This document shows, one piece after another, positions 42,113 through 56,398 of a DNA stretch of 64,000 nucleotides (the first letter of the stretch is position 1; each line of letters starts with the position of its first letter). The stretch comes from Roseovarius sp. GTDB lineage: Bacteria; Pseudomonadota; Alphaproteobacteria; Rhodobacterales; Rhodobacteraceae. The DNA lies in contig NZ_JAUCYU010000002.1 of the NCBI RefSeq assembly GCF_030373445.1, positions 186,001 to 250,000 of the forward strand. The letters run 5' to 3'. A program made the translations under genes and the position numbers. Below the pieces are notes generated by a model. The model saw nothing but the letters and a program-made list of their open reading frames with translations. It was not told the DNA's origin and did not search any database.

Positions 42113-43117
42113 TCATTTCGGCTTTTCCGCCGTCAAGGGCCGGGACGCAAAGCCCGGCGGGCTGACATCGTCATAGGTGCGGTCGGCCAATGTCTTGGCC
42201 GCGATCTGCGCCTTGAGCGCGGAAAGGAATGCCGTCTCGGTCCGGCTGAGGCGGCTGGCCGGGTTGGTGACCACGTAGATGTCGACGGCCGGCGGATTGG
42301 TATAGGGCGGCAGGCGCCACAAGGTGCCGTTCTCCAGGTCCTGCCGCACGACATGAACGGGCAGGGGGCCGATGCCCAGCCCGCAATAGATAAGCCGCCG
42401 CACCTCCTCGAGGTGGGTCGAGCGTCCGACGATGTTGTGGTCGAGGTCATTGTCCCGCCGGAAGATGGCCACGGGGCGAAGCGCATCATCCATGCTGTCG
42501 GTCTCGAAGGACACCCCGGCACAGCCCCGTAGATCGCTGATGTCGAGGTCCCGCCGTCCGTAAAGCGGGTGGGGCGGGCCGCAGAAGAACCCGAAATGCT
42601 CACGGTAGATGCGCTCGTAGTCCAGTTTCTCCAGACGCCTGTTCAAAAGGCAGATCCCGAAGGGTGCCGTTTTTTCGAGCACCCCGCGCAGGACGTTGCG
42701 GCTGGTCTCGACGCGAACCTCGAAGCTGACAGCCGGGTGGACGCGGTGGAACTCGATCAGCGTCTGGTCGAGGATCGGGGTGACCACGTGGCTCGCCAGC
42801 AGGATATCGACATGCCCAGTCAGATCCTTCGAGGCGGATTGAGTGAGGTCGGCCAGTCGTGAGACCGACCCGTATATCTCGGTGCATTCGCGATACAGCT
42901 CGCGCCCGGCCGCCGTCAGCCGGAACGCCCCGCCACCCCGTTCTATAAGGCGGCTGCCGATCTGCGCCTCGAGCCGACCGAGCGCCACGCTGACCGTCGG
43001 CTGCCGTCGCAACAGGCGCGTGGCAGCCGCCGTGATCCCGCCTTCCTCGACGATCACCACGAAGGTGCGCAGCAGGTTCCAGTCGAGGTTGGTTACGAAC
43101 TTGTCGGCGTGGTTCAG
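42113..43117 (-). CDS. LysR-family regulator with probable CTG start
   Basis: A LysR regulator, 334 residues if translation begins at CTG 43117. The DNA-binding domain needs NHADKFVTNLDWNLLRTFVV upstream of VIVEEGGITAAATRLLRRQP, yet there is no ATG, GTG or TTG between an in-frame TGA and the GTG at 43060. A ribosome site AAAGGACGAGG precedes the CTG. Starting at GTG 43060 would remove the first helix of the winged helix. The rest (VSVALGRLEAQIGSRLIERG; GLGIGPLPVHVV) is normal. It is divergent from the amino-acid-type ABC operon, its likely target. Confidence 0.8.
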   Translation of the reverse strand: MNHADKFVTNLDWNLLRTFVVIVEEGGITAAATRLLRRQPTVSVALGRLEAQIGSRLIERGGGAFRLTAAGRELYRECTEIYGSVSRLADLTQSASKDLTGHVDILLASHVVTPILDQTLIEFHRVHPAVSFEVRVETSRNVLRGVLEKTAPFGICLLNRRLEKLDYERIYREHFGFFCGPPHPLYGRRDLDISDLRGCAGVSFETDSMDDALRPVAIFRRDNDLDHNIVGRSTHLEEVRRLIYCGLGIGPLPVHVVRQDLENGTLWRLPPYTNPPAVDIYVVTNPASRLSRTETAFLSALKAQIAAKTLADRTYDDVSPPGFASRPLTAEKPK

Positions 43118-43275
43118 CGCCTCGTCCTTTCACTTTCGGGGCCAGATCCGCGGCCCCATAAATCTCGTCTATGCTCTGAATAGGTATTATCAATTTGAGG
43201 CATTTTGGCGGTGCCTGCAATAGTTTGGCCTACGAGGCTCTGGAAAAAGAGCCGGGAACCAACGGGAGACATTCA

Positions 43276-44511
43276 ATGACGACTTTCAGATTGCTGACCG
43301 CCACCGCGGTCGGCGCCCTTGTGACGGCCGGCGCCGCCATGGCCGCCGATTGCCCCATAAAGATCGGCGGAATTGCCCCGCTTTCGGCCCCCGGGACCGT
43401 GGTCGGCGGTGAGGCGATGCGCGAGGCGATGCTGATCGCCGAGGAAGACATCAACGCGGCCGGCGGCGTGCTGGGCTGCGATATCGAGGTGGTGATCGGC
43501 GATTCCGAGGGCCTGCCCGAGAAGGGCGCCGCGCTGATGGAGAAATTCATTTCGCAGGATGGCGTTGTCGCCGTGGGTGGCGGCTATCACAGCTCGGTCG
43601 GCGTGGCGTCGAAGGACGTGGCGCAACGCCTTGGCGTGCCGACGGTCTTCGCCGAGACGTGGAATGACACCATCACCGGCGACAAGCAGAAATACATCTT
43701 CCGCATCGCGCCGCTCAGCTCGTGGGCCTCGGCAACCATCTGGCAATTTGCGCTGACCGTGCCGGGCGTCGAAAAGGTGGCGATCCTGACCGAGAACACC
43801 GATTACGGTATTCCCGCCTCGCAGGAAACCGCGAAGGGCCTGGAAAGCGGCGGCGTCGAAAGCACGACCTTCTCGGTCGATATCGGCACGCAGGACTATG
43901 CCGGCATCGTGCAGCGGATCAAGGCCGAGAACCCGGACATGATCATCACCCTGGTGACGGGCGAGGCCGCCTACAACTTCACCCAGCAGGCCGCGGACGC
44001 GGGCATCGGGCCGCTCGATCTTCCTTTCGTGACCGGGCAGGACGCGCTGGAATCGGGCGCCTACTGGCAGAACGTGCCGGACGGGCAGAACGCCTTCGTG
44101 CAACGGATCGGCGTGCCCGAGACCCAGTTCACCGAAAAGGGCAAGGCCTTCGCCGCCACCTACAAGGAGCGGATGGGCAAGTCTGATGTCGAGAGCTACG
44201 CGATGGAGGCCTACGATTCGATCGCCATCATTGCCCAGGCGATCGAAGAGGCCGGTTCGACTGACGCCGACGCGATCGTCACGGCACTGGAAGGGATCGA
44301 GCATGACGGCACGCTCGGCAAGATCTACTTCCCCTATGGCACCCAGAAAGACCCTTCGGAAGACGACAAGGGCGACGAGTGGTGGCACCAGTGGCCCGAC
44401 CCGGCCCTGACCATGATCCAGTACCAGGAGGAGGGCCAGGACTCGACCAGCGCGGCGATCGTCTATCCTGACGCTTACAAGACGGCCGAGCCGGTCTTCG
44501 TGAACGAATGA
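43276..44511 (+). CDS. amino-acid-type (LIV/HAAT) ABC importer binding protein
   Basis: A 411-residue periplasmic binding protein of the branched-chain/amide family (Peripla_BP_6). Signal peptide MTTFRLLTATAVGALVTAGAAMA; the mature protein begins ADCPIKIGGIAPLSAPG. GGYHSSVGVASKDVAQRLGVP and AILTENTDYGIPASQETAKG are typical lobes. It is the first gene of a run of eleven on the plus strand ending at 54592. The catabolic enzymes downstream suggest an amino-acid-like or N-acylated substrate, not branched-chain amino acids as such. GGGAG precedes ATG 43276. Confidence 0.88.
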   Translation: MTTFRLLTATAVGALVTAGAAMAADCPIKIGGIAPLSAPGTVVGGEAMREAMLIAEEDINAAGGVLGCDIEVVIGDSEGLPEKGAALMEKFISQDGVVAVGGGYHSSVGVASKDVAQRLGVPTVFAETWNDTITGDKQKYIFRIAPLSSWASATIWQFALTVPGVEKVAILTENTDYGIPASQETAKGLESGGVESTTFSVDIGTQDYAGIVQRIKAENPDMIITLVTGEAAYNFTQQAADAGIGPLDLPFVTGQDALESGAYWQNVPDGQNAFVQRIGVPETQFTEKGKAFAATYKERMGKSDVESYAMEAYDSIAIIAQAIEEAGSTDADAIVTALEGIEHDGTLGKIYFPYGTQKDPSEDDKGDEWWHQWPDPALTMIQYQEEGQDSTSAAIVYPDAYKTAEPVFVNE

Positions 44512-44522
44512 TCTTCTGATCC

Positions 44523-44552
44523 GCCCGGGCGCCCCCTTTCAGGCGCCCGGGC
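44523..44552 (+). terminator. intercistronic hairpin after binding-protein gene
   Basis: A perfect 11-bp stem GCCCGGGCGCC (44523-44533) with 44542-44552, loop CCCTTTCA. It lacks a T run, so it more likely stabilises the binding-protein mRNA or attenuates transcription than ends it. Confidence 0.65.
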
Positions 44553-44605
44553 ACACCAACATCCGAAAACAGCCGGGGCAAACCCGGCGTGACACGGGGG
44601 ACATC

Positions 44606-45874
44606 GTGGAATTTCCGTTGCTGTTCTGGGGCGTGCTGGCCTGGATGATCTTCTGGGGTGTGGCTGGAAGTATCCTCATCAAGCGCCGCTATCTCGCCCG
44701 CGATCTCGACACGTCCAACGCGGCTTTCATAGGCACGATGGCCGGCGCCTCGCTTGGCCCCGTGGGGCTGGCGGCGGTCTGGGCGGCGACCCCCCGCACC
44801 TCCGTCTACCTGACCACGTCGCTCGCGCTCTTGACGGTCCTGATCATCGCGGTGACGTTCAGCTTCGCCGACCCCGACAACATCTGCGTCGTCTCTGGCG
44901 GGTTCGTCGCCAGCCAGTTCGTCAACGGCCTGATCATCGGCATCATCTACGGCTTCATGGCGCTGGGCCTGTCGCTGATCTTCTCGATCCTCGGCGTCGT
45001 CAGCTTCGCCCATGGCGAATTCTACATGATCGGCGGGATGCTGGTCTATTTCATCACCGAGGTCTGGCTGCCCGGGATCAACCCGCTGATGGGGGTGCTG
45101 GGCGCCTGCCTCGTGGCTTTCCTTCTCGGCGCGGCGTTCGAACGGCTGATGCTGACGCCGATGTATCATGGCAAGATCGACCGGCCGATCGAATACGGTA
45201 TCCTAGTGACATTCGGCCTGGCCTTCACGCTGCAGTATTTCGTGCAGGCGCTGGCCGGCGCGAACCCGGTCAAGGCGCAACGTTTCCTGGAATTCCCGCG
45301 CTGGCGCTTCCCGGCCGAGGCTGACCCGATCTGGATCAAGACCAGCCGGGGCAGCATGACGCTGTTCGAGCAGGTCACGATCTCTAGCCCGCGCTTCACG
45401 GCGGCCATCACCTGTATCCTCGTGCTGCTGGCGCTGCTGTTCCTGATGCACCGCACATGGACGGGCAAGGCCCTGCGCGCGGTCAGCCAGGACCGCGAAG
45501 CCGCGGCCATCACCGGCATCAACCCCAACACGATGAACATGCTGGCCTTCGCCCTCGGGGGCATGATCGCGGCACTGGCGGGTGCGCTCCTGGTGCAGGC
45601 GTTCTCGTGGCTGCCTCAAGTCGGCGCCATCCCGGCGATGCGCTCCTTCGTGATCGTGGTACTGGGGGGCCTCGGCTCTCTGCCCGGCGCCTTCATCGGC
45701 GGCATCATGGTCGGCCTTGTCGAGGCGGCGGGGACCGGATGCGTGCCGGACGCCCAGAAGGCGGCCAGCTATATCCCGGCCTACGGCATGATCGTATTGA
45801 CGCTGACGCTGCTGCTGCGGCCCACGGGCATGTTCGGCCGCCGCTTTGCCAGCGGCATGCACGGACAGGGCTAG
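44606..45874 (+). CDS. LivH-type permease with N-terminal membrane extension
   Basis: A 422-residue permease; standard LivH is about 290-310. The LivH core starts near residue 105 (QFVNGLIIGIIYGFMALGLS, then GVVSFAHGEFYMIGG) and ends normally (LRPTGMFGRR). The first 100 residues add about three membrane helices (LLFWGVLAWMIFWGVAGSI, FIGTMAGASLGPVGLAAVWA, LTTSLALLTVLIIAVTFSFA). A 30-residue loop (KTSRGSMTLFEQVTISSPRF) is also inserted. GTG start at 44606 after ACGGGGG. It pairs with the LivM-type permease downstream. Confidence 0.88.
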   Translation: MEFPLLFWGVLAWMIFWGVAGSILIKRRYLARDLDTSNAAFIGTMAGASLGPVGLAAVWAATPRTSVYLTTSLALLTVLIIAVTFSFADPDNICVVSGGFVASQFVNGLIIGIIYGFMALGLSLIFSILGVVSFAHGEFYMIGGMLVYFITEVWLPGINPLMGVLGACLVAFLLGAAFERLMLTPMYHGKIDRPIEYGILVTFGLAFTLQYFVQALAGANPVKAQRFLEFPRWRFPAEADPIWIKTSRGSMTLFEQVTISSPRFTAAITCILVLLALLFLMHRTWTGKALRAVSQDREAAAITGINPNTMNMLAFALGGMIAALAGALLVQAFSWLPQVGAIPAMRSFVIVVLGGLGSLPGAFIGGIMVGLVEAAGTGCVPDAQKAASYIPAYGMIVLTLTLLLRPTGMFGRRFASGMHGQG

Positions 45875-45886
45875 GGGGTAGAGGCC

Positions 45887-47119
45887 ATGAGAAAGCAGAT
45901 ACCCAACCTGGCCGGCGGCATCTTCCTGATCCTGCTGCTGATCTTCCCGCTGACCTACGGGGCGGCGGATTACGACTACATCATGCATATCCTGATCACC
46001 GGCTTCTTCTACGCGATCCTCGCGGCAAGCTGGTCGATGCTGTCGGGCTATGCGGGGCAGTTCTCGTTCGGGCACATGGGGTTCATGGCGATCGGGGCCT
46101 ACACGACGGGCCTCTTCTGTCACTACATCTACCTCTCTCCTGAACCGACGGAACTTTGCGCGGAAACGCGGTTCTTCGGGCAATGGCTGGTGGTGGTGAA
46201 CCCGATCGGGGTGACCTCGACGACGCTCACGCAGGACTGCTTGCGACAGGCGCTCGACGCGTGGGGCGGAACTGTCGATGTTCGGCCCATGCCCGTGCTC
46301 CTAGGCATTGTTCTGGGCACGCTGATGGGGGCCCTGGCGGGCTTTCTCGTCGGCATGCTGGTGCTGCGCCTGCGCGCGGCCTATCTCGCGCTCTTCACCC
46401 TGGGCTTCTCGGAAATCCTAAAGGCGACCATCTCGGCCGAGATCGACATCACGCGGGGGCAGGCGGGGCTGGAATTGCCGCCGCTCTATCCCAACGGCGT
46501 CAACCTTTTCGGCACCTATTTCGAGCCAACCGACAAACTGCCGCCCTATTATACCATGCTGGCGCTCTTGCTGGCCTGCCTCGCCATTCTCGGATGGCTC
46601 GCCCGGTCCAAGTTCGGCCTCTTCGTTCGCGCCCTGCGCGAGGATCAGGATGCGGCGGCGGCGCTCGGTGTGAATACAACCCGCTACAAGGTTTTGGTCT
46701 TCACCATCACCTGCGCCATGGCCGCCGCGGCCGGCGCGGTGCAGGGGCATTACGTGCAGATCATCACGCCCAACATGCTGTTCCTGCTGCAAATGAGCCT
46801 TGTCGTCGCCATGGCGGTCATCGGCGGCATCGAGAACTTCGTCGCCGCCGCCATCGGCGCGATCATCCTTCAGGTGGTGCTCGAACTCCTGCGCAACAGC
46901 TTCGTCATCGGCGGGGTCGAGGTCGACATGACGATCTGGCGGCTGGTCTTCTTCGGCATCCTGCTGATGATCACGCTGCGGTTCTTCCGCAACGGCCTGA
47001 TCGCCCCCATCATCGCCTATTTCCGTCGCGAGGGCGTGGCAGAGGAAACCGTTGCCAAACGCGCCTCGACCGTCACCGGCCCGGGCGGCGGACCGCACAG
47101 AACGGAGGCACCGGAGTGA
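45887..47119 (+). CDS. LivM-type permease with extra periplasmic loop
   Basis: A 410-residue permease; standard LivM is about 320-360. Core motifs GYAGQFSFGHMGFMAIGAYT, LRLRAAYLALFTLGFSEI and GLFVRALREDQDAAAALGVN. After the third helix there is an extra segment of about 55 residues (PEPTELCAETRFFGQWLVVV to GTVDVRPMPV) with two cysteines that could form a disulphide in the periplasm. The C-terminal tail is basic. It overlaps the ATPase gene as GTGA. Confidence 0.88.
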   Translation: MRKQIPNLAGGIFLILLLIFPLTYGAADYDYIMHILITGFFYAILAASWSMLSGYAGQFSFGHMGFMAIGAYTTGLFCHYIYLSPEPTELCAETRFFGQWLVVVNPIGVTSTTLTQDCLRQALDAWGGTVDVRPMPVLLGIVLGTLMGALAGFLVGMLVLRLRAAYLALFTLGFSEILKATISAEIDITRGQAGLELPPLYPNGVNLFGTYFEPTDKLPPYYTMLALLLACLAILGWLARSKFGLFVRALREDQDAAAALGVNTTRYKVLVFTITCAMAAAAGAVQGHYVQIITPNMLFLLQMSLVVAMAVIGGIENFVAAAIGAIILQVVLELLRNSFVIGGVEVDMTIWRLVFFGILLMITLRFFRNGLIAPIIAYFRREGVAEETVAKRASTVTGPGGGPHRTEAPE

Positions 47120-47856
47120 TACATCTCAAGGTCACCAATCTGCAGAAGCGCTTTGGCGGCAACCATGTTCTGAAAGGCGTGAATTTCGAAATCAACGGTC
47201 CCGAGCTGATCGGCCTGATCGGCCCCAACGGGGCGGGCAAGACAACGATGACCAACATCCTCGACGGGGCGATCAAACCCACGAGCGGCACGGTCTATCT
47301 CGGGGAGAAACGCATCGACCAGTTGCAGCCGTTCGAGGTGGCACGCGCCGGACTGGGGCGTACTTTCCAGGTGACGCGCTCTTTCCGGCGGATGACGGTG
47401 TTGGAAAACCTCTACGTACCGGCGCTCGCCATGGGCAACACGCATGGGCAGGCAGAGCTTCGCGACAAGGCGATGGGGGTGCTCGAATTCCTTACCATCG
47501 ACCACCTGCGCAACGAATACGCGCAGGCGCTGTCGGGCGGTCAGCAGAAGCTGCTGGAACTGGGCCGGCTGCTGATGCTCAACCCCGATGTCATCATTCT
47601 CGACGAACCCTTCGCCGGCGTGCACCCGCGCCTGATGGAGGTGATCTACGCCTACATCCAGCGCGTGAACGACGAGGGCAAGGCGATCATCATCATCAGC
47701 CACCAGATGGATTCGATCTTCTCGCTCTCGCAGCGGCTCCTGGTCCTGAACTTCGGCGATCTCATCGCCGACGGCCCGCCGCAGGAGGTCAAGAACGACC
47801 CGGCGGTGATCGAAGCCTATCTCGGCGCCGAGGAAGGCGAGGAGGCCCCGGCATGA
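47116..47856 (+). CDS. LivG-type ABC importer ATPase
   Basis: A 246-residue ATPase. Walker A GPNGAGKTT, signature LSGGQQKLLELGRLL, Walker B VIILDEPFAGVHP, H-loop ISHQMD. The start GTG 47116 overlaps the LivM stop; the stop overlaps the LivF start. It is one of the paired ATPases typical of HAAT importers. Confidence 0.92.
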   Translation: MIHLKVTNLQKRFGGNHVLKGVNFEINGPELIGLIGPNGAGKTTMTNILDGAIKPTSGTVYLGEKRIDQLQPFEVARAGLGRTFQVTRSFRRMTVLENLYVPALAMGNTHGQAELRDKAMGVLEFLTIDHLRNEYAQALSGGQQKLLELGRLLMLNPDVIILDEPFAGVHPRLMEVIYAYIQRVNDEGKAIIIISHQMDSIFSLSQRLLVLNFGDLIADGPPQEVKNDPAVIEAYLGAEEGEEAPA

Positions 47857-48575
47857 CCGAACCGGCAACCGTTCTCGAAATGAAGAACCTCTCGGTGGGC
47901 TACTACCGCGATCTCAACATTCTCTCCGACCTCGATATCAAGGCACGGCAGGGCCAGATCACCACGATCCTCGGCGCCAACGGGGTGGGCAAATCGACCG
48001 CGCTCAAGGCGGCGTTCGGTTTCCTCGACCCCAACCAGGGCGATATCCTTCTTGACGGAGAGTCGATCCTCGGCATCCCGCCGTATCAAAAGATCCTGAA
48101 GGGGCTGGCCTACATTCCGCAGCAACCCGGCGTCTTCAAGGACATGACAGTCGAAGAAAACCTCGAACTTGGCGGCTGGACCTTCCGGCGCGACCGCAAG
48201 CAGGTGCGCCAGAAGGTCGAGGCCAATTACGAACGCTTCCCGGCGCTGCGCGACAAGCGCAAGCAGGTCACGGGCGAGTTGTCGGGCGGTCAGCAGCGCA
48301 TGGTCGAGATCGGACGCACACTGATGTCGGAACCGAAGATGCTGCTGGTCGACGAGCCCACGGCGGGCCTGTCCAAGATGCTGGCAGAGGAGGTCTACGA
48401 GATGCTCACCGACCTCGCGAAGGTCGACAAGCTGACCATCCTTCTGGTCGACCAGGAAATCCGTCACGCCCTCAAGATCGCCGACTATGTCTACGTGCTC
48501 GAGCTGGGCCGGAACAAGTTCGAAGGTCCGGCCAGCGAATTTGACGATCTCGAAAAGGCGTTCTGGATAGCGTGA
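47853..48575 (+). CDS. LivF-type ABC importer ATPase
   Basis: A 240-residue ATPase. Walker A GANGVGKST, signature LSGGQQRMVEIGRTL, Walker B MLLVDEPTAGLS; the H-loop position reads VDQEIRHAL, the usual LivF variant. It forms the second nucleotide-binding subunit with the LivG-type protein. Its stop overlaps a GTG that may start the aminotransferase. Confidence 0.92.
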   Translation: MTEPATVLEMKNLSVGYYRDLNILSDLDIKARQGQITTILGANGVGKSTALKAAFGFLDPNQGDILLDGESILGIPPYQKILKGLAYIPQQPGVFKDMTVEENLELGGWTFRRDRKQVRQKVEANYERFPALRDKRKQVTGELSGGQQRMVEIGRTLMSEPKMLLVDEPTAGLSKMLAEEVYEMLTDLAKVDKLTILLVDQEIRHALKIADYVYVLELGRNKFEGPASEFDDLEKAFWIA

Positions 48576-49921
48576 GAGACGACATGGACGGGCAGGGCAA
48601 AAGCCACCTTTTCTATCAGACCCGACAGCGGCGGCCACGGCTCAGGCAGGCCGAGGGCGTGTATATCTGGGACGTGGACGGCAAACGTTACCTCGATGGC
48701 TCGTCCGGCGCGATGGTTTGCAATATCGGCCACTCGAACCCCAATGTGCTCGACGCCATGCGCAGGCAGATGGAGATTGCCACCTTCGGCTATCGCCTGC
48801 ATTTCGAAACCGAGCCGGGCGAGGCCCTGGCGGCCAAGGTCGCCGGCATGGCCCCCGAGGGGATGGAGCGCGTGTTCTTCGTTTCCGGCGGGTCGGAGGC
48901 GGTGGAAAGCGCCATCAAGCTCGCCCGGCAGTACAAGCTGGCCGTGGGCGAGCCGCAGCGCTGGAAAGTCATCTCGCGCTACCCGGCATATCACGGCTGC
49001 ACGCTCGGCGCGCTGGCACTGACCGGCTACGCGCCGATGACGGCACCTTTCGACCCGATGATGCGCCAGATGCCGAAGATACCCGCGCCGCGCGCTTATC
49101 TCGACGGTCTCGACCCGGCCGACGCGGAAACCGGTCGCCACTACGCCGACATGCTGGAGGAGCGCATCCTGCAGGAAGGGCCGGAAACCGTGCTGGCCTT
49201 TATCGTCGAGCCCATCGGTGGCGCCTCCACCGGCTGCCTGATGCCACCGGAAGGTTACATGAAACGCATTCGCGAGATTTGTGACCGCTACGACGTGTTG
49301 CTGATCCATGACGAGGTGATCTCGGGCGGCGGCCGCACCGGCACCTTTTTCGCCGCCGACAACTGGGACACCGTGCCGGATATCGCGGCGCTCTCGAAAG
49401 GGTTCGGCGCGGGTTACATGCCGCTCGGCGCGGTGATCGCACAGGAGGAGATCGTCGAGGCGGTGCTGGGCCATGGCGGCTTCATCCACGGCTTCACCTA
49501 TGCCGGCAACCCGCTCGCCTGCGCGGCCGGCCTTGCCGTGATCGAGGAGATCGAACGGCAGGACATGATGGCGAATGCGCTGGACGTGGGCACGCAACTG
49601 GGCCACCGCCTGCACGCTTTGATGAACCGGTACCCGATCATCGGCGACGTGCGCGGCATGGGGATGCTGCAGGCGTTCGAACTGGTCGCCGACCGGGCCA
49701 CCATGGCGCCTTTGCCGAAGGAGATGAACGCCTATGACCGGCTGGTCGAGGCGGCCTATGACGAAGGGCTCATCATCTATTCCCGCCGCACCCACGGGGG
49801 CTATTCCGGCGATCACTTCATCGTCGCGCCGCCGATGATCAGCACCATGGAGCATGTTGACGAAATCATCGAGAAGCTCACCCGCGCGCTCGACCGGTTC
49901 TGTGAAGAGGCAGGGCTTTGA
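48572..49921 (+). CDS. class III PLP-dependent aminotransferase
   Basis: A protein of up to 449 residues (GTG 48572, coupled to livF as GTGA; ATG 48584 would give 445). Class III fold: VDGKRYLDGSSGAMVCNIGH, VSGGSEAVESAIKLAR, RYPAYHGCTLGALALTG, PLP aspartate in HDEVISGGGRTG, PLP lysine in ALSKGFGAGYMPLGAV, and FIHGFTYAGNPLACAAG. Such enzymes act on omega- or beta-amino groups or on amines with pyruvate or 2-oxoglutarate as acceptor. Next to a beta-keto acid cleavage enzyme, it may produce that enzyme's keto substrate (inference). Confidence 0.9.
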   Translation: MRDDMDGQGKSHLFYQTRQRRPRLRQAEGVYIWDVDGKRYLDGSSGAMVCNIGHSNPNVLDAMRRQMEIATFGYRLHFETEPGEALAAKVAGMAPEGMERVFFVSGGSEAVESAIKLARQYKLAVGEPQRWKVISRYPAYHGCTLGALALTGYAPMTAPFDPMMRQMPKIPAPRAYLDGLDPADAETGRHYADMLEERILQEGPETVLAFIVEPIGGASTGCLMPPEGYMKRIREICDRYDVLLIHDEVISGGGRTGTFFAADNWDTVPDIAALSKGFGAGYMPLGAVIAQEEIVEAVLGHGGFIHGFTYAGNPLACAAGLAVIEEIERQDMMANALDVGTQLGHRLHALMNRYPIIGDVRGMGMLQAFELVADRATMAPLPKEMNAYDRLVEAAYDEGLIIYSRRTHGGYSGDHFIVAPPMISTMEHVDEIIEKLTRALDRFCEEAGL

Positions 49922-49965
49922 CCATGCGCTTTACACGAAACGAATGCGTTTCGCGGCGCCGTCGG

Positions 49966-50042
49966 ATGCCTCCGGCGGGGATATTTCGGACCAGAAGAAG
50001 CATGAAACACGCGCGCTTGTTTCTTCTGGCTGAAAATATCCC
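49966..50042. repeat. REP-like palindromic intergenic element, copy B
   Basis: Bases 49966-50000 repeat the 35-base unit seen inverted at 2178-2212 with one mismatch. The element extends into an imperfect hairpin: GGATATTTCGGACCAGAAGA from 49979, matched by a right arm ending GAAAATATCC near 50042. It fills the gap between the aminotransferase and the DUF849 gene without breaking a reading frame. Confidence 0.72.
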
Positions 50043-50084
50043 GGGGGCTTGGGGGCTGGCCCCCAATCTGGCCGGTTAATTCCC

Positions 50085-51011
50085 ATGTCGAAGATCATCA
50101 TCACCTGCGCCGTCACCGGCTCGATCCACACGCCCAGCCTGTCTCCGCATCTGCCTTTCACAGCGAAGGAGATCGAGGATCAGGCTGTTGACGCCGCCGC
50201 GGCCGGCGCGGCAATCCTGCACCTGCACGCCCGTGATCCGGACGACGGCCGGCCATCCTCGAAGGCCGCGCATTTCATGGAGTTCCTGCCAAGCATCCGC
50301 GAGCGCTGCGATGCCGTGGTCAACATCACAACCGGTGGCAGCGCGGTCATGACGCTCGAGGAGAGGCTCGAAGGCGCGATGGCGGCAGAGCCGGAGATGT
50401 GCTCGCTCAACATGGGCTCGATGAACTTCGCGCTTTATCCCATGGCCAGGAAAGAACGTGACTGGCGCTTCGACTGGGAAAAGCCGTTTCTCGAAGCCAC
50501 CGATGACCTGATCTTCAAGAACACGCCTCGCGACATTGCCCATGTACTGAACGAGATGGGCAAGAAGCGCGGGGCGCGGTTCGAGTTCGAATGCTACGAC
50601 ATGGGCCACCTCGTGATGCTGCGCCATTTCGTCGAGCGCGGCTTGGTGGTGCCGCCGATTTTCATCCAGTTCGTCTTCGGGGTGTTAGGCGGCATGGCCG
50701 CTGCACCCGAGACGCTGACGCATATGGTGCGGCTCGCCGACAGCTATTTCGGAGAGGATTACCGCTTCTCAGTTCTGGCCGCGGGTCGGGACCAGATGCC
50801 TATGGCGGCGATGGCCGCCGGGATGGGCGGGCATGTGCGCGTGGGGCTGGAGGACAGTCTCTATCTCGAAAAGGGACAGCTGGCAGTGTCCAACGCCGCA
50901 CAGGTCGAAAAGGCCCGCCGGATCGTTGAAGACCTGGGCCGCGAGGTCGCCACGCCGGACGAGGCGCGGGCAATGCTCGGGCTCAAGGGGGCGGCACATG
51001 TCGCTTTCTGA
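50085..51011 (+). CDS. beta-keto acid cleavage enzyme (BKACE, DUF849)
   Basis: A 308-residue TIM-barrel Zn enzyme. BKACE family members condense a beta-keto acid with acetyl-CoA, releasing acetoacetate and a new acyl-CoA. Zinc ligands and active-site residues are visible in ILHLHARDPDDG (two His) and HVRVGLEDSLYL (Arg, Glu, Asp), with NITTGGS and LNMGSMNFAL. The N-terminal segment is AVTGSIHTPSLSPHLP, whereas many members have a GAET-type motif there, so it belongs to a different subclass whose substrate I cannot name. ATG 50085; it overlaps the GNAT gene by 14 bases. Confidence 0.9.
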   Translation: MSKIIITCAVTGSIHTPSLSPHLPFTAKEIEDQAVDAAAAGAAILHLHARDPDDGRPSSKAAHFMEFLPSIRERCDAVVNITTGGSAVMTLEERLEGAMAAEPEMCSLNMGSMNFALYPMARKERDWRFDWEKPFLEATDDLIFKNTPRDIAHVLNEMGKKRGARFEFECYDMGHLVMLRHFVERGLVVPPIFIQFVFGVLGGMAAAPETLTHMVRLADSYFGEDYRFSVLAAGRDQMPMAAMAAGMGGHVRVGLEDSLYLEKGQLAVSNAAQVEKARRIVEDLGREVATPDEARAMLGLKGAAHVAF

Positions 51012-51492
51012 AACCATCGGCATCTCACGGGTGGGCCCGGAGGATATTCTCGATCTCGCAATCGCGCTGGAGGCGCTTTCCTCGGACATGGGCGATACGC
51101 ATCGCGCGACAGCGGAGGTGTTGACGCGCGCGTGCCTTGGTGACGCCCCGGCCTGTCATGGTCTGCTGGCCCGGGAGGGCGGCGCCGTGCTGGGCGCGGC
51201 GCTGGTGTCGCCGGTCTTCTCCACGACCTGCGGCGCGGCAGGCGTCTATGTCTCCGACCTCTGGGTCGCCGATACCGCGCGTGGGACGGGGCTGGGCCGG
51301 ACCCTCCTGCGCGCCGCGGCGGATTTCGCGGTGCACAGGTGGCAGGCCCGGTTCATGAAACTGATGGTCTATGAAGAGAATACGTCCGCCCGGGCGTTTT
51401 ACGACCGGCTCGGCTTTGATATGGCGGAGCGTGACCTGACCTGCCTTCTGACGGCAGACGCCTTCGACGACCTGCTGGGAGACCCTCAATGA
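50998..51492 (+). CDS. GNAT-family N-acetyltransferase
   Basis: A 164-residue acetyltransferase. The acetyl-CoA-binding motif is WVADTARGTGLGRTLLRAAADFA-like (key part RGTGLGRTLL), followed by LMVYEENTSARAFYDRLGF. It lies between the cleavage enzyme and a deacetylase-fold protein, overlapping both genes, so it should act on a pathway amine or amino acid. The acceptor substrate is unknown. Confidence 0.87.
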   Translation: MSLSETIGISRVGPEDILDLAIALEALSSDMGDTHRATAEVLTRACLGDAPACHGLLAREGGAVLGAALVSPVFSTTCGAAGVYVSDLWVADTARGTGLGRTLLRAAADFAVHRWQARFMKLMVYEENTSARAFYDRLGFDMAERDLTCLLTADAFDDLLGDPQ

Positions 51493-52511
51493 AAGCCATC
51501 CTCGACGACCGCCAGCGCGCGCATGATCCGCAGAACTTCATGGCGAACGGCACGAAAAAGCCCAACCCCGAGGTGCCGAAACGTGTCGATATCCTGAAAG
51601 CGGGGGCCGAGGCGGCGGGTTGTATTTTCGAGACGCCGGCCGATGCCGGTCTCGGGCCCATCGCGGCGGTGCACACGGCCGAATACCTGACCTTCCTGCG
51701 CAACATTCACACCCGCTGGCAACGGATCGAAGGCGCCTCGGAGGAGGTCATCCCCAACGTCCATCCGATGAACCGCACCGACAGCTATCCGAAATCTGCC
51801 GTGGGGCAGGCGGGGTATCACCAGGCCGACACGGCCTGCCCGATTGCGGAGTACACCTGGAAGGCGGCCTATTGGTCGGCCCAGACCGCGGTTGCCGGCG
51901 CCGATGCCGTGGCCGACGGAACGCGGGCCATCTATGCGCTCTCCCGTCCGCCGGGGCATCACGCCTTTCCCGACCTTGCCGGCGGGTTCTGCTTCTTCAA
52001 CAATTCGGGCATTGCGGCACAGCGGCTTCTTTCAAAGGGCCTGCGCCCGGCCATCCTCGATGTCGACGTGCATCATGGCAACGGAACGCAGGGCATGTTC
52101 TACGCCCGCGGCGACGTGCTGACCGTTTCGATCCATGCAGATCCGGCGCGTTTCTACCCGTTCTTCTGGGGCCACGCCCATGAACGCGGCGAGGGGGCGG
52201 GGCTGGGGGCCAATCTCAACCTGCCGCTGCCGCGCGGCACGGATGACGAGACCTATCTGGAAACACTTGACCGGGCGCTCGAACGGATCACCGATTTCGG
52301 TGCCGACGTGATCGTGGTGGCCCTGGGGCTCGACGCGCATGTCGACGACCCGTTCCAGGGCTTTGCCGTCACGACCGGAGGCTTCACCCGCATCGCCGCC
52401 GCCATCGCCAACACCGGCCTGCCGCTGGTCATCGTGCAGGAGGGAGGGTACGTCTCCGACGCTTTGGGCAGCAACCTGACTGCCTTCCTCAATGGTATCG
52501 AAGGGCACTGA
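51489..52511 (+). CDS. histone-deacetylase-fold amidohydrolase (acetylpolyamine amidohydrolase-like)
   Basis: A 340-residue arginase/deacetylase-superfamily protein of the length of bacterial acetylpolyamine amidohydrolases. Active-site His pair in LSRPPGHHAFPD, zinc ligands in DVDVHHGNGTQG and LGLDAHVDDPF, and catalytic-loop EGGYV. It should remove acetyl groups from small amines or N-acetyl amino acids. Its neighbours (GNAT, DgcA-like racemase, DgcN-like transferase) suggest it releases the free amino acid after racemisation (inference). Coupled by ATGA to the GNAT gene. Confidence 0.88.
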   Translation: MKAILDDRQRAHDPQNFMANGTKKPNPEVPKRVDILKAGAEAAGCIFETPADAGLGPIAAVHTAEYLTFLRNIHTRWQRIEGASEEVIPNVHPMNRTDSYPKSAVGQAGYHQADTACPIAEYTWKAAYWSAQTAVAGADAVADGTRAIYALSRPPGHHAFPDLAGGFCFFNNSGIAAQRLLSKGLRPAILDVDVHHGNGTQGMFYARGDVLTVSIHADPARFYPFFWGHAHERGEGAGLGANLNLPLPRGTDDETYLETLDRALERITDFGADVIVVALGLDAHVDDPFQGFAVTTGGFTRIAAAIANTGLPLVIVQEGGYVSDALGSNLTAFLNGIEGH

Positions 52512-52512
52512 C

Positions 52513-53553
52513 ATGGCCGAGATCTCGTTCCGCAAGGTCTATCTCAAGAAGCGCTTCCCGCTGGCCATCAGCCGGGGCGTGATCGAAGGGGCCGAGAACC
52601 TGTTCCTCTCGATCACCGAGAACGGGCAGACCGGCTGGGGCGAGGTTGCCCCAGGCATCACCGAGGGCGCCGAGACAACGGACGAAGCCGAAGCCATGCT
52701 GCGCGGCGTGCTGGATCGCGGTTTCGATGCGCAGGCCATTCACGACACGTGGGACAGGGCCCACGAAGAGGGCGTCGCCCCCTGTGCCCTGGCCGGTCTC
52801 GACATGGCGCTGTGGGATCTCAAGGCGAAACAGGCGGGCATGCCGTTGTACCGCCTTCTCGGGCTGGCGCGTCGGGGTGTGCCGACCTCGCTGACCGTGG
52901 GGATCAACCCGCCGGAGGTGGTGCGCGAACGGGTGCCGCTCCTGCTGGAAAAAGGCGCGAAGGCCCTCAAGATAAAGCTCGGCTCCCCCGAGGGGATCGA
53001 GGCCGACAAGGCGATGTATGCGGCCGTGATCGAGAGCGTCGGCGATGCCGATGTGGTCTTGCGCGTCGATGCCAACGGCGGCTGGTCGCTCGAAGATGCG
53101 CGCCACATGATGGGCTGGCTGGCCGAGCGGCGGGCGGAGTATATCGAACAGCCGCTGGTGCGCGGCGCCGAGGATCAGCTCTCCGACCTTTTCAAGGACC
53201 GCCCCCTTCCCATCTTCGTCGATGAAAGCTGCCGGATGTCGGGCGATATCCCCGGCTTTGCCGATCGGGTCGACGGGGTGAACCTGAAGCTGATGAAATG
53301 CGGCGGTATTACCGAGGCGTTGCGCATCGTCGCCACGGCTCGCGCCTTCGGCCTGAAAACGATGATCGGCTGCATGGGCGAAAGCGCGGTGTCGATCGCG
53401 GCGGGCGCCTCGATCGGGGCGCTGTTCGACTATATCGACCTCGACAGCCACCTCAACCTCGACCCCGACCCGGCCGATGGCGCCCCGCTGGTCGAGGGCG
53501 TGACCCTTCCCGCCGACCGGCCCGGTCACGGAGGAGACCTGCCCGATGCTTGA
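52513..53553 (+). CDS. dgcA: dipeptide-epimerase/N-acetyl-amino-acid racemase-type enolase (DgcA-like)
   Basis: A 346-residue enolase-superfamily enzyme. The two catalytic lysines of the epimerase subgroup (ALKIKLGSP and LKLMKCGG) and the metal ligands RVDANGGWS, IEQPL and FVDESC are present, so it should racemise or epimerise an alpha carbon. Annotation pipelines call such proteins L-Ala-D/L-Glu epimerase. Followed directly by a DUF1611 gene, the pair matches dgcA-dgcN of marine D-glutamate catabolism, where DgcA converts N-acetyl-D-Glu to N-acetyl-L-Glu. The symbol rests on this context. Confidence 0.8.
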   Translation: MAEISFRKVYLKKRFPLAISRGVIEGAENLFLSITENGQTGWGEVAPGITEGAETTDEAEAMLRGVLDRGFDAQAIHDTWDRAHEEGVAPCALAGLDMALWDLKAKQAGMPLYRLLGLARRGVPTSLTVGINPPEVVRERVPLLLEKGAKALKIKLGSPEGIEADKAMYAAVIESVGDADVVLRVDANGGWSLEDARHMMGWLAERRAEYIEQPLVRGAEDQLSDLFKDRPLPIFVDESCRMSGDIPGFADRVDGVNLKLMKCGGITEALRIVATARAFGLKTMIGCMGESAVSIAAGASIGALFDYIDLDSHLNLDPDPADGAPLVEGVTLPADRPGHGGDLPDA

Positions 53554-54592
53554 GCCGACCCAGAAGATCGCCATCTATGCCGAGGCCAACATGGGCCTGA
53601 TCAACGCCAAGATGGCCGAGGGGATCATCCGCTACGGCCGCAATCCGGTCGCCTGTGTGATCGACAGCCAGGCGGTGGGTAAGAGCCTGAAAGAGCTATG
53701 TAAGATTGATCGCGACATCCCAATCGTCGCCACGCTGGACGATGCGATCGGGCTGGGTGCCGAGGTTCTGGTACTTGGCACCACGCCCTCGGGCGGGCGG
53801 GTGCCGCCCGAGTGGATGGCGATGCTGGAACAAGCCATCGGCGCCGGGCTGTCGGTGGTCAACGGGCTGCATGACCGGCTGAACGACGCGCTGGGCGACC
53901 GCTTGAAGCCCGGCCAGTGGATCTGGGACATCCGCACGCCCACCGACGCCATGCCGCCCATCGCCATGGCCCGCGCGGCGAAGCTGCCCAACATCCGCGC
54001 GCTGATGGTTGGCACCGACATGGCCGTGGGCAAAAAGACCTCCGGGCTCGAGATCTGGTCGTCGCTTTGCGATGCGGGGCACGACGCGGCCTTTCTCGCC
54101 ACAGGCCAAAGCGGTGTCGCGATCACCGGCAAGGGCATTCCGCTCGACGCCTTCCGGGTGGATCATGCGGCGGGCGCCGTCGAACGCATGGTGCTGGAGA
54201 ATGCCGACCACGACATTCTGATCATCGAGGGGCAGGGCTCGCTTCTGCATCCCGGCAGCACGGCGACCCTGCCGCTGATGCGCGGAAGTTGCGCCAATGC
54301 GCTGATCCTCTGCCACCGGGCAGGGATGGATGCGCTCGACACCGCGGGGGACGCGGTGCCGGTGCCACCCTTGAGAAATGTCATTGCGCTCAACGAGATG
54401 GTGGCGCGCGCGGGCGGTGCACTGACCCCGGCGAAGGTTGTCGGCATCGCGCTTAATACCCGCGACCTTGATGAAGCCGCGGCGCGGGAGGCGATCGAGA
54501 CGACGGCCCGGGAAACGGGCCTTCCCGTGGCTGATCCGGTGCGTTTTGAAGCGGCAGAGCTCGCGGAGGCCGTGCTCGCCGCCAAGGGTTGA
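53546..54592 (+). CDS. dgcN: DUF1611 family N-acetyltransferase-like protein (DgcN-like)
   Basis: A 348-residue DUF1611 protein. N-terminal Rossmann-like domain (IAIYAEANMGLINAKMAEGI) and a C-terminal P-loop-like domain with MVGTDMAVGKKTSGLEIW and DILIIEGQGSLLHPG. In marine bacteria DgcN acetylates D-glutamate to N-acetyl-D-Glu for DgcA. The overlap with dgcA by 8 bases supports the pairing. The operon here has more enzymes than the described dgc operon, so another D-amino acid or derivative could be the true substrate. Confidence 0.8.
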   Translation: MLEPTQKIAIYAEANMGLINAKMAEGIIRYGRNPVACVIDSQAVGKSLKELCKIDRDIPIVATLDDAIGLGAEVLVLGTTPSGGRVPPEWMAMLEQAIGAGLSVVNGLHDRLNDALGDRLKPGQWIWDIRTPTDAMPPIAMARAAKLPNIRALMVGTDMAVGKKTSGLEIWSSLCDAGHDAAFLATGQSGVAITGKGIPLDAFRVDHAAGAVERMVLENADHDILIIEGQGSLLHPGSTATLPLMRGSCANALILCHRAGMDALDTAGDAVPVPPLRNVIALNEMVARAGGALTPAKVVGIALNTRDLDEAAAREAIETTARETGLPVADPVRFEAAELAEAVLAAKG

Positions 54593-54652: not shown

Positions 54653-56398
54653 ATGACGAAGATGCTGCGCACCAGATTGCTCGTGGTCGCCCTGTTCCTT
54701 GGCGCGGTTGCCGCCATTGGGGCGGGCATCTGGCACTATGCGCACATCCAGGCACTGGCGCAGCTCGAAAAGCAGGGGCGTGCCGACCTTGCCCTGGCCT
54801 CTGACCGGTTCACCGGGGAATTGCGCCGTTTCCGCGAACTGGCGGTTCTAATGACCGAGCACCCGGTCTTCGAAGATCTCACCGCCGAAGACGGGGTCGC
54901 CCGGGCCGACCGGGTCCTGCAGGACGCGGCGGACAAGAGCGGGGCGCTGGCGCTCTTCTACACGGACACGGCCGGTACGGTTCTGGCGCGGGCAGGCGAT
55001 GTCATCCTTCGCCCCGCCGGCAGCCGCTATTTCCGGCGCGCCATGCGCGGCGCGCTCGGCACCTTCTACGGGCGGCTCGGGCCGGACGGTCGCCGGGTCT
55101 ACGCTTTCGCCGCCCCCGCTTTCGGCGCGAACGGGGTCAAGGGCAGCGTCATTGCCCTCGTCGACATGATGGAAGTCGAGTGGGACTGGATCGGCGGCCA
55201 GCCCCCGGTCTTCTTCACCGACCCGGAGGGGCGTATCTTCCTGTCGAACCGTTCGGAAATCCTCGGCTGGCAACCGCGCGAGGATGGCGCGGCGCCGGCC
55301 CCGCCGATCGACCCTGCGCCGGAGTTCAGCGCCGTCCAAACCGGCACCTACGAGATCTGGCGCATGGACTGGGGCGAATACCTGCCACGCGCCGCGCTGC
55401 ACCTGTCCCGGGACGAGCCCGTGATCGGCATGACAGGGCACGCGCTGGTCGACACCTCTCCCGCCCGCCGCATCGCGTGGCTCCAGACCTCCGTTTTCAC
55501 CGTGATCTGCCTCGCCTTCGGGATGGTACTGCTGCTTCTCGGCGAACGCCGCCGCACGCTGGCCCGCGCCAATGCACAGCTTGAAACCCGCGTGGCCGAA
55601 CGCACCGCCGAGCTTTCCGACGCTAACATCGCGCTGCGCCGCGAAGTGCGGGAACGGGAAGAGGCCGAAGCCGCGCTCAAGCGCGCCCAGGACGAACTGG
55701 TGCAGGCGGGCAAGCTTTCGGCGCTGGGGCAGATGAGCGCCGGGATCAGTCACGAATTGAACCAGCCGCTCATGGCGATCCAGCAATTCGCGGATAACGG
55801 CGGCTCGTTCCTTGCCAAGGGCCGGACGGACGCGGCCGGCGAGAACCTCAATCGAATTTCGCAGCTTGCGGCGCGCGCCGCCCGCATCATCAAGAACCTG
55901 CGCGCCTTTGCCCGGAACGAGAGCGAACCCATGGGCAAGGTCGACCTCGTCCAGGTCATCGACACGGCGACAGAGCTGACCGAAGCCCGCCTCCGAAAGG
56001 AGGGGGTGACGCTTGACTGGCAGCCACCCTCGCATCCTGTCCATGCACTGGGGGGCGAAGTGCGGCTGGTGCAAGTCTTCGTAAATCTCATCAACAATGC
56101 CGCCGATGCCATGTCGGCCCAGGCCGACAAGCACGTAAGCATCGGTATCCAGGCCGGTCCGCCGCTGAGCGTGACCGTACGGGACATCGGCCCGGGCATC
56201 AGCGATCCGGCCAAGATGTTCGAACCCTTCTACACGACCAAGGCGGTGGGCACCGATGACGGTATGGGGCTCGGTCTCTCGATCTCATACGGTCTTGTGC
56301 AGAGTTTCGGTGGCAACATCCGCGGAACGAATGCGTCGGGCGGTGGGGCAATCATGACCGTCGAACTCGAACCCTGGCGTCAAGAGGTGGCGGCATGA
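54653..56398 (+). CDS. dctB: sensor histidine kinase, DctB type
   Basis: A 581-residue membrane kinase. Helix 1 (LLVVALFLGAVAAIGAGIW), a periplasmic double Cache/PAS-like sensor (about 35-275), helix 2 (SVFTVICLAFGMVLLLL), a coiled coil, HisKA H-box GQMSAGISHELNQPLMAI and HATPase motifs (NLINNAADAM, DIGPGI, GMGLGLSIS). It senses C4-dicarboxylates or similar acids and phosphorylates DctD. The ATG lies 60 bases after dgcN; it overlaps dctD as ATGA. Confidence 0.92.
   Translation: MTKMLRTRLLVVALFLGAVAAIGAGIWHYAHIQALAQLEKQGRADLALASDRFTGELRRFRELAVLMTEHPVFEDLTAEDGVARADRVLQDAADKSGALALFYTDTAGTVLARAGDVILRPAGSRYFRRAMRGALGTFYGRLGPDGRRVYAFAAPAFGANGVKGSVIALVDMMEVEWDWIGGQPPVFFTDPEGRIFLSNRSEILGWQPREDGAAPAPPIDPAPEFSAVQTGTYEIWRMDWGEYLPRAALHLSRDEPVIGMTGHALVDTSPARRIAWLQTSVFTVICLAFGMVLLLLGERRRTLARANAQLETRVAERTAELSDANIALRREVREREEAEAALKRAQDELVQAGKLSALGQMSAGISHELNQPLMAIQQFADNGGSFLAKGRTDAAGENLNRISQLAARAARIIKNLRAFARNESEPMGKVDLVQVIDTATELTEARLRKEGVTLDWQPPSHPVHALGGEVRLVQVFVNLINNAADAMSAQADKHVSIGIQAGPPLSVTVRDIGPGISDPAKMFEPFYTTKAVGTDDGMGLGLSISYGLVQSFGGNIRGTNASGGGAIMTVELEPWRQEVAA

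Follow-up and report, generated by a model that had tools for sequence, protein, structure and literature searches.

The 64,000-nucleotide stretch of the Roseovarius sp. contig NZ_JAUCYU010000002.1 analysed here (positions 186,001 to 250,000; the window) contains, between 43276 and 54592, a run of eleven genes on the plus strand with a divergently oriented LysR gene in front of them. They code for an importer of the HAAT type, a class III aminotransferase, a beta-keto acid cleavage enzyme (BKACE), a GNAT N-acetyltransferase, an HDAC-fold deacetylase, and two proteins resembling DgcA and DgcN. We propose, at about even chances, that this operon lets the cell take up a beta-amino acid bearing a second, acetylated amino group and degrade it aerobically. 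The operon itself and the beta-keto acid step are well supported by comparative genomics, the latter indirectly, whereas the substrate, the order of the steps and the accessory role of the last two genes we infer. A preliminary description of these genes had also proposed a catabolic operon, and this is supported. Its acetylation/deacetylation pair is likewise supported, and its transamination to a beta-keto acid followed by BKACE cleavage gains indirect support from the exchange of BKACE for a coenzyme A (CoA)-transferase described below.

The aminotransferase is present in 35 of the 149 sampled genera of the family (E at most 1e-140). Beside it stands BKACE in 18 genera (the window, L113, L114, L116, L119, L120, L122, L147 and L154-L163), a 3-oxoacid CoA-transferase A/B pair in 15, neither in two (G106, with aminotransferase, GNAT, HDAC-fold and DauA-like genes, and G052, with aminotransferase and GNAT), and both in none. 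No CoA-transferase relative was found at 40% identity in the stretches of the 18 BKACE genera, and no BKACE in those of the other 15. The deacylases divide in a similar way: the HDAC-fold gene occurs in 16 of the 18 BKACE genera (absent from L119 and L147), and an ArgE-type deacylase comes next after the CoA-transferase pair, itself directly 3' of the aminotransferase (after GNAT in L130 and L135), in all but one of the 15 genera. The fullest form of the second arrangement, on plasmid records of Rhodobacteraceae M382 and Alisedimentitalea, comprises an importer, the aminotransferase, CoA-transferase A and B, an ArgE/DapE deacylase, a thiolase, an amidohydrolase and an alanine racemase. For one representative each, the M382 CoA-transferase subunits pass the NCBIfam 3-oxoacid CoA-transferase cut-offs (227.5 against 128.5 and 253 against 243.6) and the thiolase passes TIGR01930. 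Since unrelated sets of enzymes acting on 3-keto acids are swapped behind one and the same aminotransferase, this enzyme would produce a 3-keto acid and its substrate would be a beta-amino acid. The conversion of a beta-amino acid to a beta-keto acid is thus very likely and well supported, if indirectly.

A larger sample gives the same picture. Loci L003-L082 were found through the HDAC-fold gene (the best 80 of 183 candidate loci) and are biased accordingly; rates are taken from the search of the 149 genera where possible. Positional labels follow tblastn identity (50% for aminotransferase, BKACE and HDAC-fold genes, 30% for GNAT, 60% for ArgE and thiolase), a procedure that distant replacements may escape. 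The pooled set holds 105 aminotransferase loci, L122 having been dropped as a repeat of L046; L154, L157 and L159, which repeat L027, L070 and L029, are counted among the genera and absent from the pool. In this set 80 loci carry BKACE, 17 the CoA-transferase, eight neither and none both. The HDAC-fold gene accompanies 77 of the 80 BKACE loci and none of the 17 CoA-transferase loci, and ArgE is found in 16 of these 17 and, at 60% identity, nowhere else, although at a looser limit of 45% the stretches L090 and L091 hold an ArgE relative alongside the HDAC-fold gene. A deacylase from one of two unrelated families stands beside the aminotransferase in 100 of the 105 loci (84 HDAC-fold, 16 ArgE), and GNAT in 73. 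Deacylation that is near-universal, together with acetylation that is optional, fits a substrate that often arrives already acetylated.

Gene order is conserved far beyond chance. Among the 80 loci kept for the HDAC-fold gene and further stretches picked from search results, an HDAC-fold orthologue of at least 58% identity is present in 97, of which 74 also hold the aminotransferase and BKACE, part of the remaining 23 being cut by contig ends; the divergent LysR gene is present in 87 of the 105 aminotransferase loci, with 14 stretches too short to judge and four lacking it. The importers of relatives are of the spermidine/putrescine (Pot) type, the lysine/arginine/ornithine type or, as in the window, the HAAT type, the first two being the commonest. 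The modules acting on D-configured amino acids also vary, the place of the DgcA/DgcN-like pair being taken in certain relatives by a DauA-like D-basic-amino-acid dehydrogenase or by a racemase: 59 of the 105 loci have none, 27 a DauA-like gene, ten the DgcA/DgcN-like pair (the window excluded) and nine an alr-family gene. A maximum-likelihood tree of the aminotransferases (quick method, 107 rows) requires at least three switches between BKACE and CoA-transferase, eight changes of importer class and 14 of D-module. The seven HAAT-type loci with an aminotransferase of at least 50% identity, window included, all carry the DgcA/DgcN-like pair and form one starred clade. The preliminary description had held that scattering of the enzymes among relatives would break the idea of a single pathway; what scatters is the importer and the racemase module, and mostly not the aminotransferase-centred core. 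Seen across relatives, this is a catabolic unit put together from modules and not a single fixed pathway.

The following course may be proposed. The compound would be taken up by the ABC importer, and a free distal amine would be acetylated by GNAT, which would keep the keto acid formed afterwards from cyclising and fit it to an uncharged pocket. The aminotransferase would convert the 3-amino into a 3-keto group, BKACE would use acetyl-CoA to split this product, releasing acetoacetate together with an N-acetylated acyl-CoA (4-acetamidobutyryl-CoA if the substrate is beta-lysine), and the HDAC-fold enzyme would strip the acetyl group to give 4-aminobutyrate. In relatives, a 3-oxoacid CoA-transferase and a thiolase would perform the cleavage and an ArgE/M20 deacylase the deacetylation; the DgcA/DgcN-like pair would handle a D-configured companion amino acid. 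Our best guess for the substrate is beta-lysine or acetyl-beta-lysine. Barker and co-workers reportedly described, around 1979-1981, an aerobic degradation of beta-lysine in Pseudomonas B4, said to proceed by N6-acetylation, transamination at C3, cleavage of the resulting 3-keto acid into acetoacetate plus 4-acetamidobutyryl-CoA, and deacetylation to 4-aminobutyrate. Every step of that route has an operon gene of a fitting family (GNAT, aminotransferase, BKACE and HDAC-fold deacetylase); the comparison is one of pathway steps. The present case differs in its hosts (Rhodobacterales and kin), its dedicated importer, its alternative cleavage and deacylase sets and its D-amino acid module, and a search of an open-access paper library for names from the aerobic beta-lysine pathway gave, among the matches listed, one unrelated paper and no catabolic gene assignment. 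Similarly, in the Kce pathway of lysine fermentation a BKACE cleaves the 3-keto acid derived from beta-lysine, but the operon route would be aerobic and would use transamination and acetylation instead of the B12 and dehydrogenase steps of fermentation. The order acetylate, transaminate, cleave and deacetylate seems to fit known chemistry better than racemisation and deacetylation at the outset. As no KamA-family gene was found in the window genome at E 0.001, the substrate would be imported; across the sample, KamA above the cut-off occurs in five of the 35 genera with the aminotransferase and in six of the 114 others (Fisher p 0.13), and in none of those five does it lie on the aminotransferase contig.

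BKACE passes both of its family models (Table 1), and its zinc ligands, HxH and Glu, align with those of 8RIO. By PDB sequence search it lies near 3e02, 3e49 and BKACE15 (8RIO), in the subfamily of BKACE15 and 3,5-dioxohexanoate cleavage, and it falls below the cut-off of the Kce model (256 bits against 382). The function named by its NCBIfam model, 3,5-dioxohexanoate cleavage, which we take to point to a phloroglucinol context, was set aside because amino-acid genes (aminotransferase, GNAT and deacetylase) adjoin BKACE here and BKACE15 takes several substrates. The substrates tested with BKACE15 (beta-ketohexanoate, 3,5-dioxohexanoate and similar; PMC11961710) have an uncharged chain end, as an acetylated chain would have, which would agree with such a chain as the BKACE substrate; a table of the family groups is among the contents of PMC4922564. 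A second BKACE of the window genome, 57% identical, lies in another context (G000:C18:292340-293257, L110). The taste of BKACE15 for short uncharged keto acids would also suit the same chemistry applied to an uncharged or shorter beta-amino acid (beta-leucine, 3-aminohexanoate, beta-ornithine or 3,5-diaminohexanoate), which might enter the cell free, in N-acylated form or as a dipeptide. In favour of this alternative are the uncharged amino acids that HAAT importers frequently transport, L119, where GNAT and the HDAC-fold gene are missing, and L149, where BKACE, GNAT and the HDAC-fold gene accompany an Opp importer and a dipeptidase-like gene. However, a deacylase in 100 and GNAT in 73 of the 105 aminotransferase loci imply a further amine, and we regard a substrate of this sort as improbable. 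The gene of L149 (10217-11320) codes for a protein that by eye resembles a membrane dipeptidase and lies between the Opp importer and the BKACE-GNAT-HDAC genes, a hint at a dipeptide substrate at that locus.

The HDAC-fold protein is closest in PDB sequence searches to acetylpolyamine amidohydrolases (3men 315 bits, 3q9b 263 bits) and has no NCBIfam match at E 0.001. It contains the Hist_deacetyl domain, and its catalytic residues (His-His, Asp-His, Asp and Tyr) align with those enzymes; at one of these positions chain 3q9c has Ala where 3q9b has His. Fold and catalytic residues are thus shared with acetylpolyamine amidohydrolases, but the operon enzyme is proposed to act on an acetamido acid or on the CoA ester of one. 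For GNAT no NCBIfam family scored above its cut-off; a match to streptothricin acetyltransferase was discarded as weak (31.5 bits), that family being matched by four of the 30 GNATs scanned.

Several observations weigh against the proposal of an acetylated beta-amino acid. The substrates of the operon enzymes are deduced ones, and no result fixes the chain length. The NCBIfam scans gave no match of GNAT to the beta-lysine acetyltransferase (AblB) family, presumably TIGR03827, although we know of no gene for the Pseudomonas beta-lysine acetyltransferase and the missing match is therefore not decisive. GNAT was not found in 17 of the 80 BKACE loci and in 15 of the 17 CoA-transferase loci, a thiolase of at least 60% identity is near the CoA-transferase in only five of 15 genera, and L119 joins aminotransferase, BKACE and the DgcA/DgcN-like pair without GNAT or HDAC-fold gene. 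Six of the 24 genera with a BKACE of at least 66% identity lack the aminotransferase at 1e-140; all of their stretches except L151 (L148, L149, L150, L152 and L153) have the HDAC-fold gene next to BKACE. Loci L032 and L041 hold aminotransferase, GNAT, HDAC-fold and DauA-like genes in genomes without BKACE at 1e-60, as does L133, the G106 locus, in a genome without BKACE at 1e-90. In L050, L053, L082 and L093 the HDAC-fold and DauA-like genes have no adjoining aminotransferase or BKACE; the genomes of L050 and L053 lack the aminotransferase (1e-120) and BKACE (1e-60), the L082 genome has an adjacent aminotransferase-BKACE pair at another place, and in the L093 genome a BKACE of 53% lies away from the locus. 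From loci of this kind without aminotransferase and BKACE, or without a close BKACE, it follows that the HDAC-fold enzyme must have another use. In addition, the DauA-like protein is a relative of D-arginine dehydrogenase (283 bits, against 45 for the next enzyme kind). Across 33 such proteins, two arginines and a tyrosine never change and 26 share a glutamate; these positions correspond to D-arginine dehydrogenase residues that bind the carboxylate and the basic side chain, while two other substrate positions differ. Since the residues for a basic side chain are mostly kept, the companion substrate would be a D-basic alpha-amino acid, which the D-modules thus appear to imply and a pure beta-lysine route leaves unexplained. 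On one reading the cation importers may also bring in D-lysine or D-ornithine; on another, the true nutrient may be a conjugate of a beta-amino acid and a D-amino acid.

It could be argued from the same loci that the unit salvages basic alpha-amino acids in N-acetylated and D-configured form, or polyamines (acetyl-lysine, acetyl-ornithine, D-lysine or acetylputrescine), the HDAC-fold enzyme deacetylating, DauA or the DgcA/DgcN-like pair removing the D form, the aminotransferase acting on an omega-amine and BKACE being a side branch. This would be in line with the four loci just described, with the predominance of Pot-type and lysine/arginine/ornithine-type importers and with a D-module that is a D-arginine-dehydrogenase relative, an alr-family racemase or the DgcA/DgcN-like pair, but it leaves unaccounted for the BKACE or 3-oxoacid CoA-transferase beside the aminotransferase in 33 of 35 genera and the 59 of 105 loci without any D-module, and we consider it rather unlikely.

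The names DgcA and DgcN, given to the last two genes in the preliminary description, are not sustained because both proteins score under half the curated cut-offs (188 bits against 400 for NF042940, DgcA; 219 against 480 for NF041892, DgcN) and the same genome holds, at G000:C7 (L111), a pair above both (507 and 564 bits). The latter genes lie away from the window operon, at about 533215-535266 of G000:C7 (L111 9216-11267), and an MFS-family gene (L111 7809-9074) adjoins them. For the same reasons a D-glutamate function was rejected for the window pair. The enolase-superfamily protein keeps the catalytic motifs of that superfamily (KxK, D, E, D and K) in alignment with relatives, and its closest solved chain is the dipeptide epimerase 3jva; those of the DUF1611 protein are 2obn (289 bits) and then 7xrj (146 bits). 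An extended D-glutamate-type route, with DgcN acetylating and DgcA racemising before deacetylation and transamination, could appeal to these motifs and to the pairing of a DUF1611 acetyltransferase family with an enolase-superfamily racemase, as in the DgcN-DgcA route. Yet the genomic partners differ, the scores are low, the above-cut-off pair is elsewhere and the window pair is optional among loci; such a route is very improbable. Nor is the single obligatory acetylate-racemise-deacetylate sequence of the preliminary description supported, because most loci with this aminotransferase lack the pair; it is also found in L119, which has neither GNAT nor HDAC-fold gene, and in L121, where it accompanies the HDAC-fold gene in a stretch without aminotransferase or BKACE. 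It occurs with Pot-type importers as well (L046, L049, L051 and L063). Window-type DUF1611 genes (E at most 1e-60) are present in nine of 149 genera, with an HDAC-fold orthologue adjacent in six and not in three. In L117 a HAAT importer is found with a more distant aminotransferase (45%), a DAO-family oxidoreductase gene and a DgcN/DgcA-like pair in convergent orientation; BKACE, GNAT and HDAC-fold genes are missing from its vicinity. We suggest that the pair is a swappable, accessory side module for a D-configured companion amino acid.

Regarding the layout of the operon, reading of the open reading frames (ORFs) confirmed the eleven plus-strand genes and the divergent LysR gene, but the start given earlier, 43117, lies upstream of the first gene. 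Six of the ten junctions overlap by the 4-14 bases earlier ascribed to most of them, which upholds the operon; three leave 94, 12 and 163 bases between the genes, and at the tenth the choice of start codon decides between a 1-base gap and a 20-base overlap. Apart from the DgcA and DgcN names, the gene families stood in the Pfam and NCBIfam scans of ten of the eleven proteins, and for LivG by reading and homology. The importer has, by Pfam and for LivG by homology, a Peripla_BP_6 protein, two BPD_transp_2 permeases and ABC ATPases, the LivJHMGF make-up of HAAT importers; none of its four scanned proteins reached an NCBIfam Liv/Urt cut-off. It is enlarged, as had been noticed, by a long LivH, whose hydrophobic extension precedes the permease domain; other HAAT-type loci have a LivH about as long (L117, 423 codons; L119, 1263 aligned bases). 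The solute-binding protein has relatives of 72-91% identity in L014, L027, L030, L116, L117, L119 and L154 (the last being the L027 stretch). The aminotransferase remains below the cut-off of NF005685 (462.6 bits against 485), and its true start may lie a few codons inside the ORF.

Table 1. Genes of the operon and its surroundings in the window, and an additional gene of relatives
Feature	Position	Strand	Basis
LysR regulator	42113-43060	-	ORF, divergent from the operon
Solute-binding protein, HAAT-type	43276-44511	+	PF13458 191 bits
LivH permease, N-terminal extension of about 100 residues	44606-45874	+	PF02653; TIGR03409, match from residue 103 of 422
LivM permease	45887-47119	+	PF02653 145.5 bits
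LivG ATPase	47116-47856	+	GTG start; 4-base overlap with LivM; reading and homology
LivF ATPase	47853-48575	+	PF00005; TIGR03410 198.5 bits, under cut-off
Class III aminotransferase, proposed beta-aminotransferase	48572-49921	+	PF00202 334 bits
BKACE	50085-51011	+	PF05853 367.5 bits (against 24.8); NF053538 493 bits (against 430); aligns with 8RIO/8RIP
GNAT N-acetyltransferase, proposed distal-amine acetylation	50998-51492	+	PF00583 59 bits
HDAC-fold deacetylase, acetylpolyamine amidohydrolase type	51489-52511	+	PF00850 237.9 bits
Enolase-superfamily racemase/epimerase, DgcA-like, not DgcA	52513-53553 (alternative start 52492)	+	NF042940 188 bits; 3jva
DUF1611 protein, DgcN-like, not DgcN	53546-54592	+	NF041892 219 bits; 2obn
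Extra gene of CoA-transferase-type loci	L131 5896-6774; L132 6020-6901; L135 10363-11229; L137 6293-7084; L140 12621-13433		

Further genes were seen around the operon and its relatives. A sensor kinase and a response regulator, DctB/DctD-like by eye, lie directly 3' of the operon at 54653-57627; a kinase follows also in L003 and L014, and a response regulator in L014. An endonuclease/exonuclease/phosphatase-family gene separates aminotransferase and BKACE in L114 (5903-7489). Just 5' of the aminotransferase of L083 (4702-6348) is a gene for a DMFA2_C (N,N-dimethylformamidase-like) protein, possibly another amide-cleaving partner, and ORFs of similar length occupy the same position in L086, L087 and L095. 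In the CoA-transferase-type loci listed at the foot of Table 1, the binding protein and the permeases are separated by an additional gene of about 263-293 residues, which in L131 has no NCBIfam match at 1e-40. The neighbours of the plasmid aminotransferases of P. inhibens and S. mexicanum (47-50% identity), those of L118 (dimethylsulphoniopropionate lyase and esterase) and the upstream ORFs of L041 (by eye a TRAP-type importer) were uninformative.

N-epsilon-acetyl-beta-lysine is an osmolyte across a wide range of methanogens (PMC1224877). Tentatively, and going beyond an acetylated beta-amino acid in general, the operon may represent the gene set of the aerobic beta-lysine pathway in marine Rhodobacterales and their kin, consuming N-epsilon-acetyl-beta-lysine released by methanogens and other microbes. 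It would exist in two interchangeable versions, one with BKACE and the HDAC-fold deacetylase and the other with 3-oxoacid CoA-transferase, thiolase and M20 deacylase, and the DgcA/DgcN-like pair would act on a D-basic amino acid as a new module for acyl transfer and racemisation. For annotation, the best-match names DgcA and DgcN mislead at this operon. If the proposal is true, genes would become available for 4-acetamidobutyryl-CoA deacetylase and acetyl-beta-lysine aminotransferase, to our knowledge orphan activities, and a pathway known mainly from old biochemistry would gain its genes. An explanation would also be at hand for a conserved operon without an assigned function, whose aminotransferase is present in about one in four of the genera sampled (35 of 149). 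Acetyl-beta-lysine is a salt-protection compound, and the route would connect this osmolyte of archaea with the turnover of carbon and nitrogen by bacteria in saline habitats.

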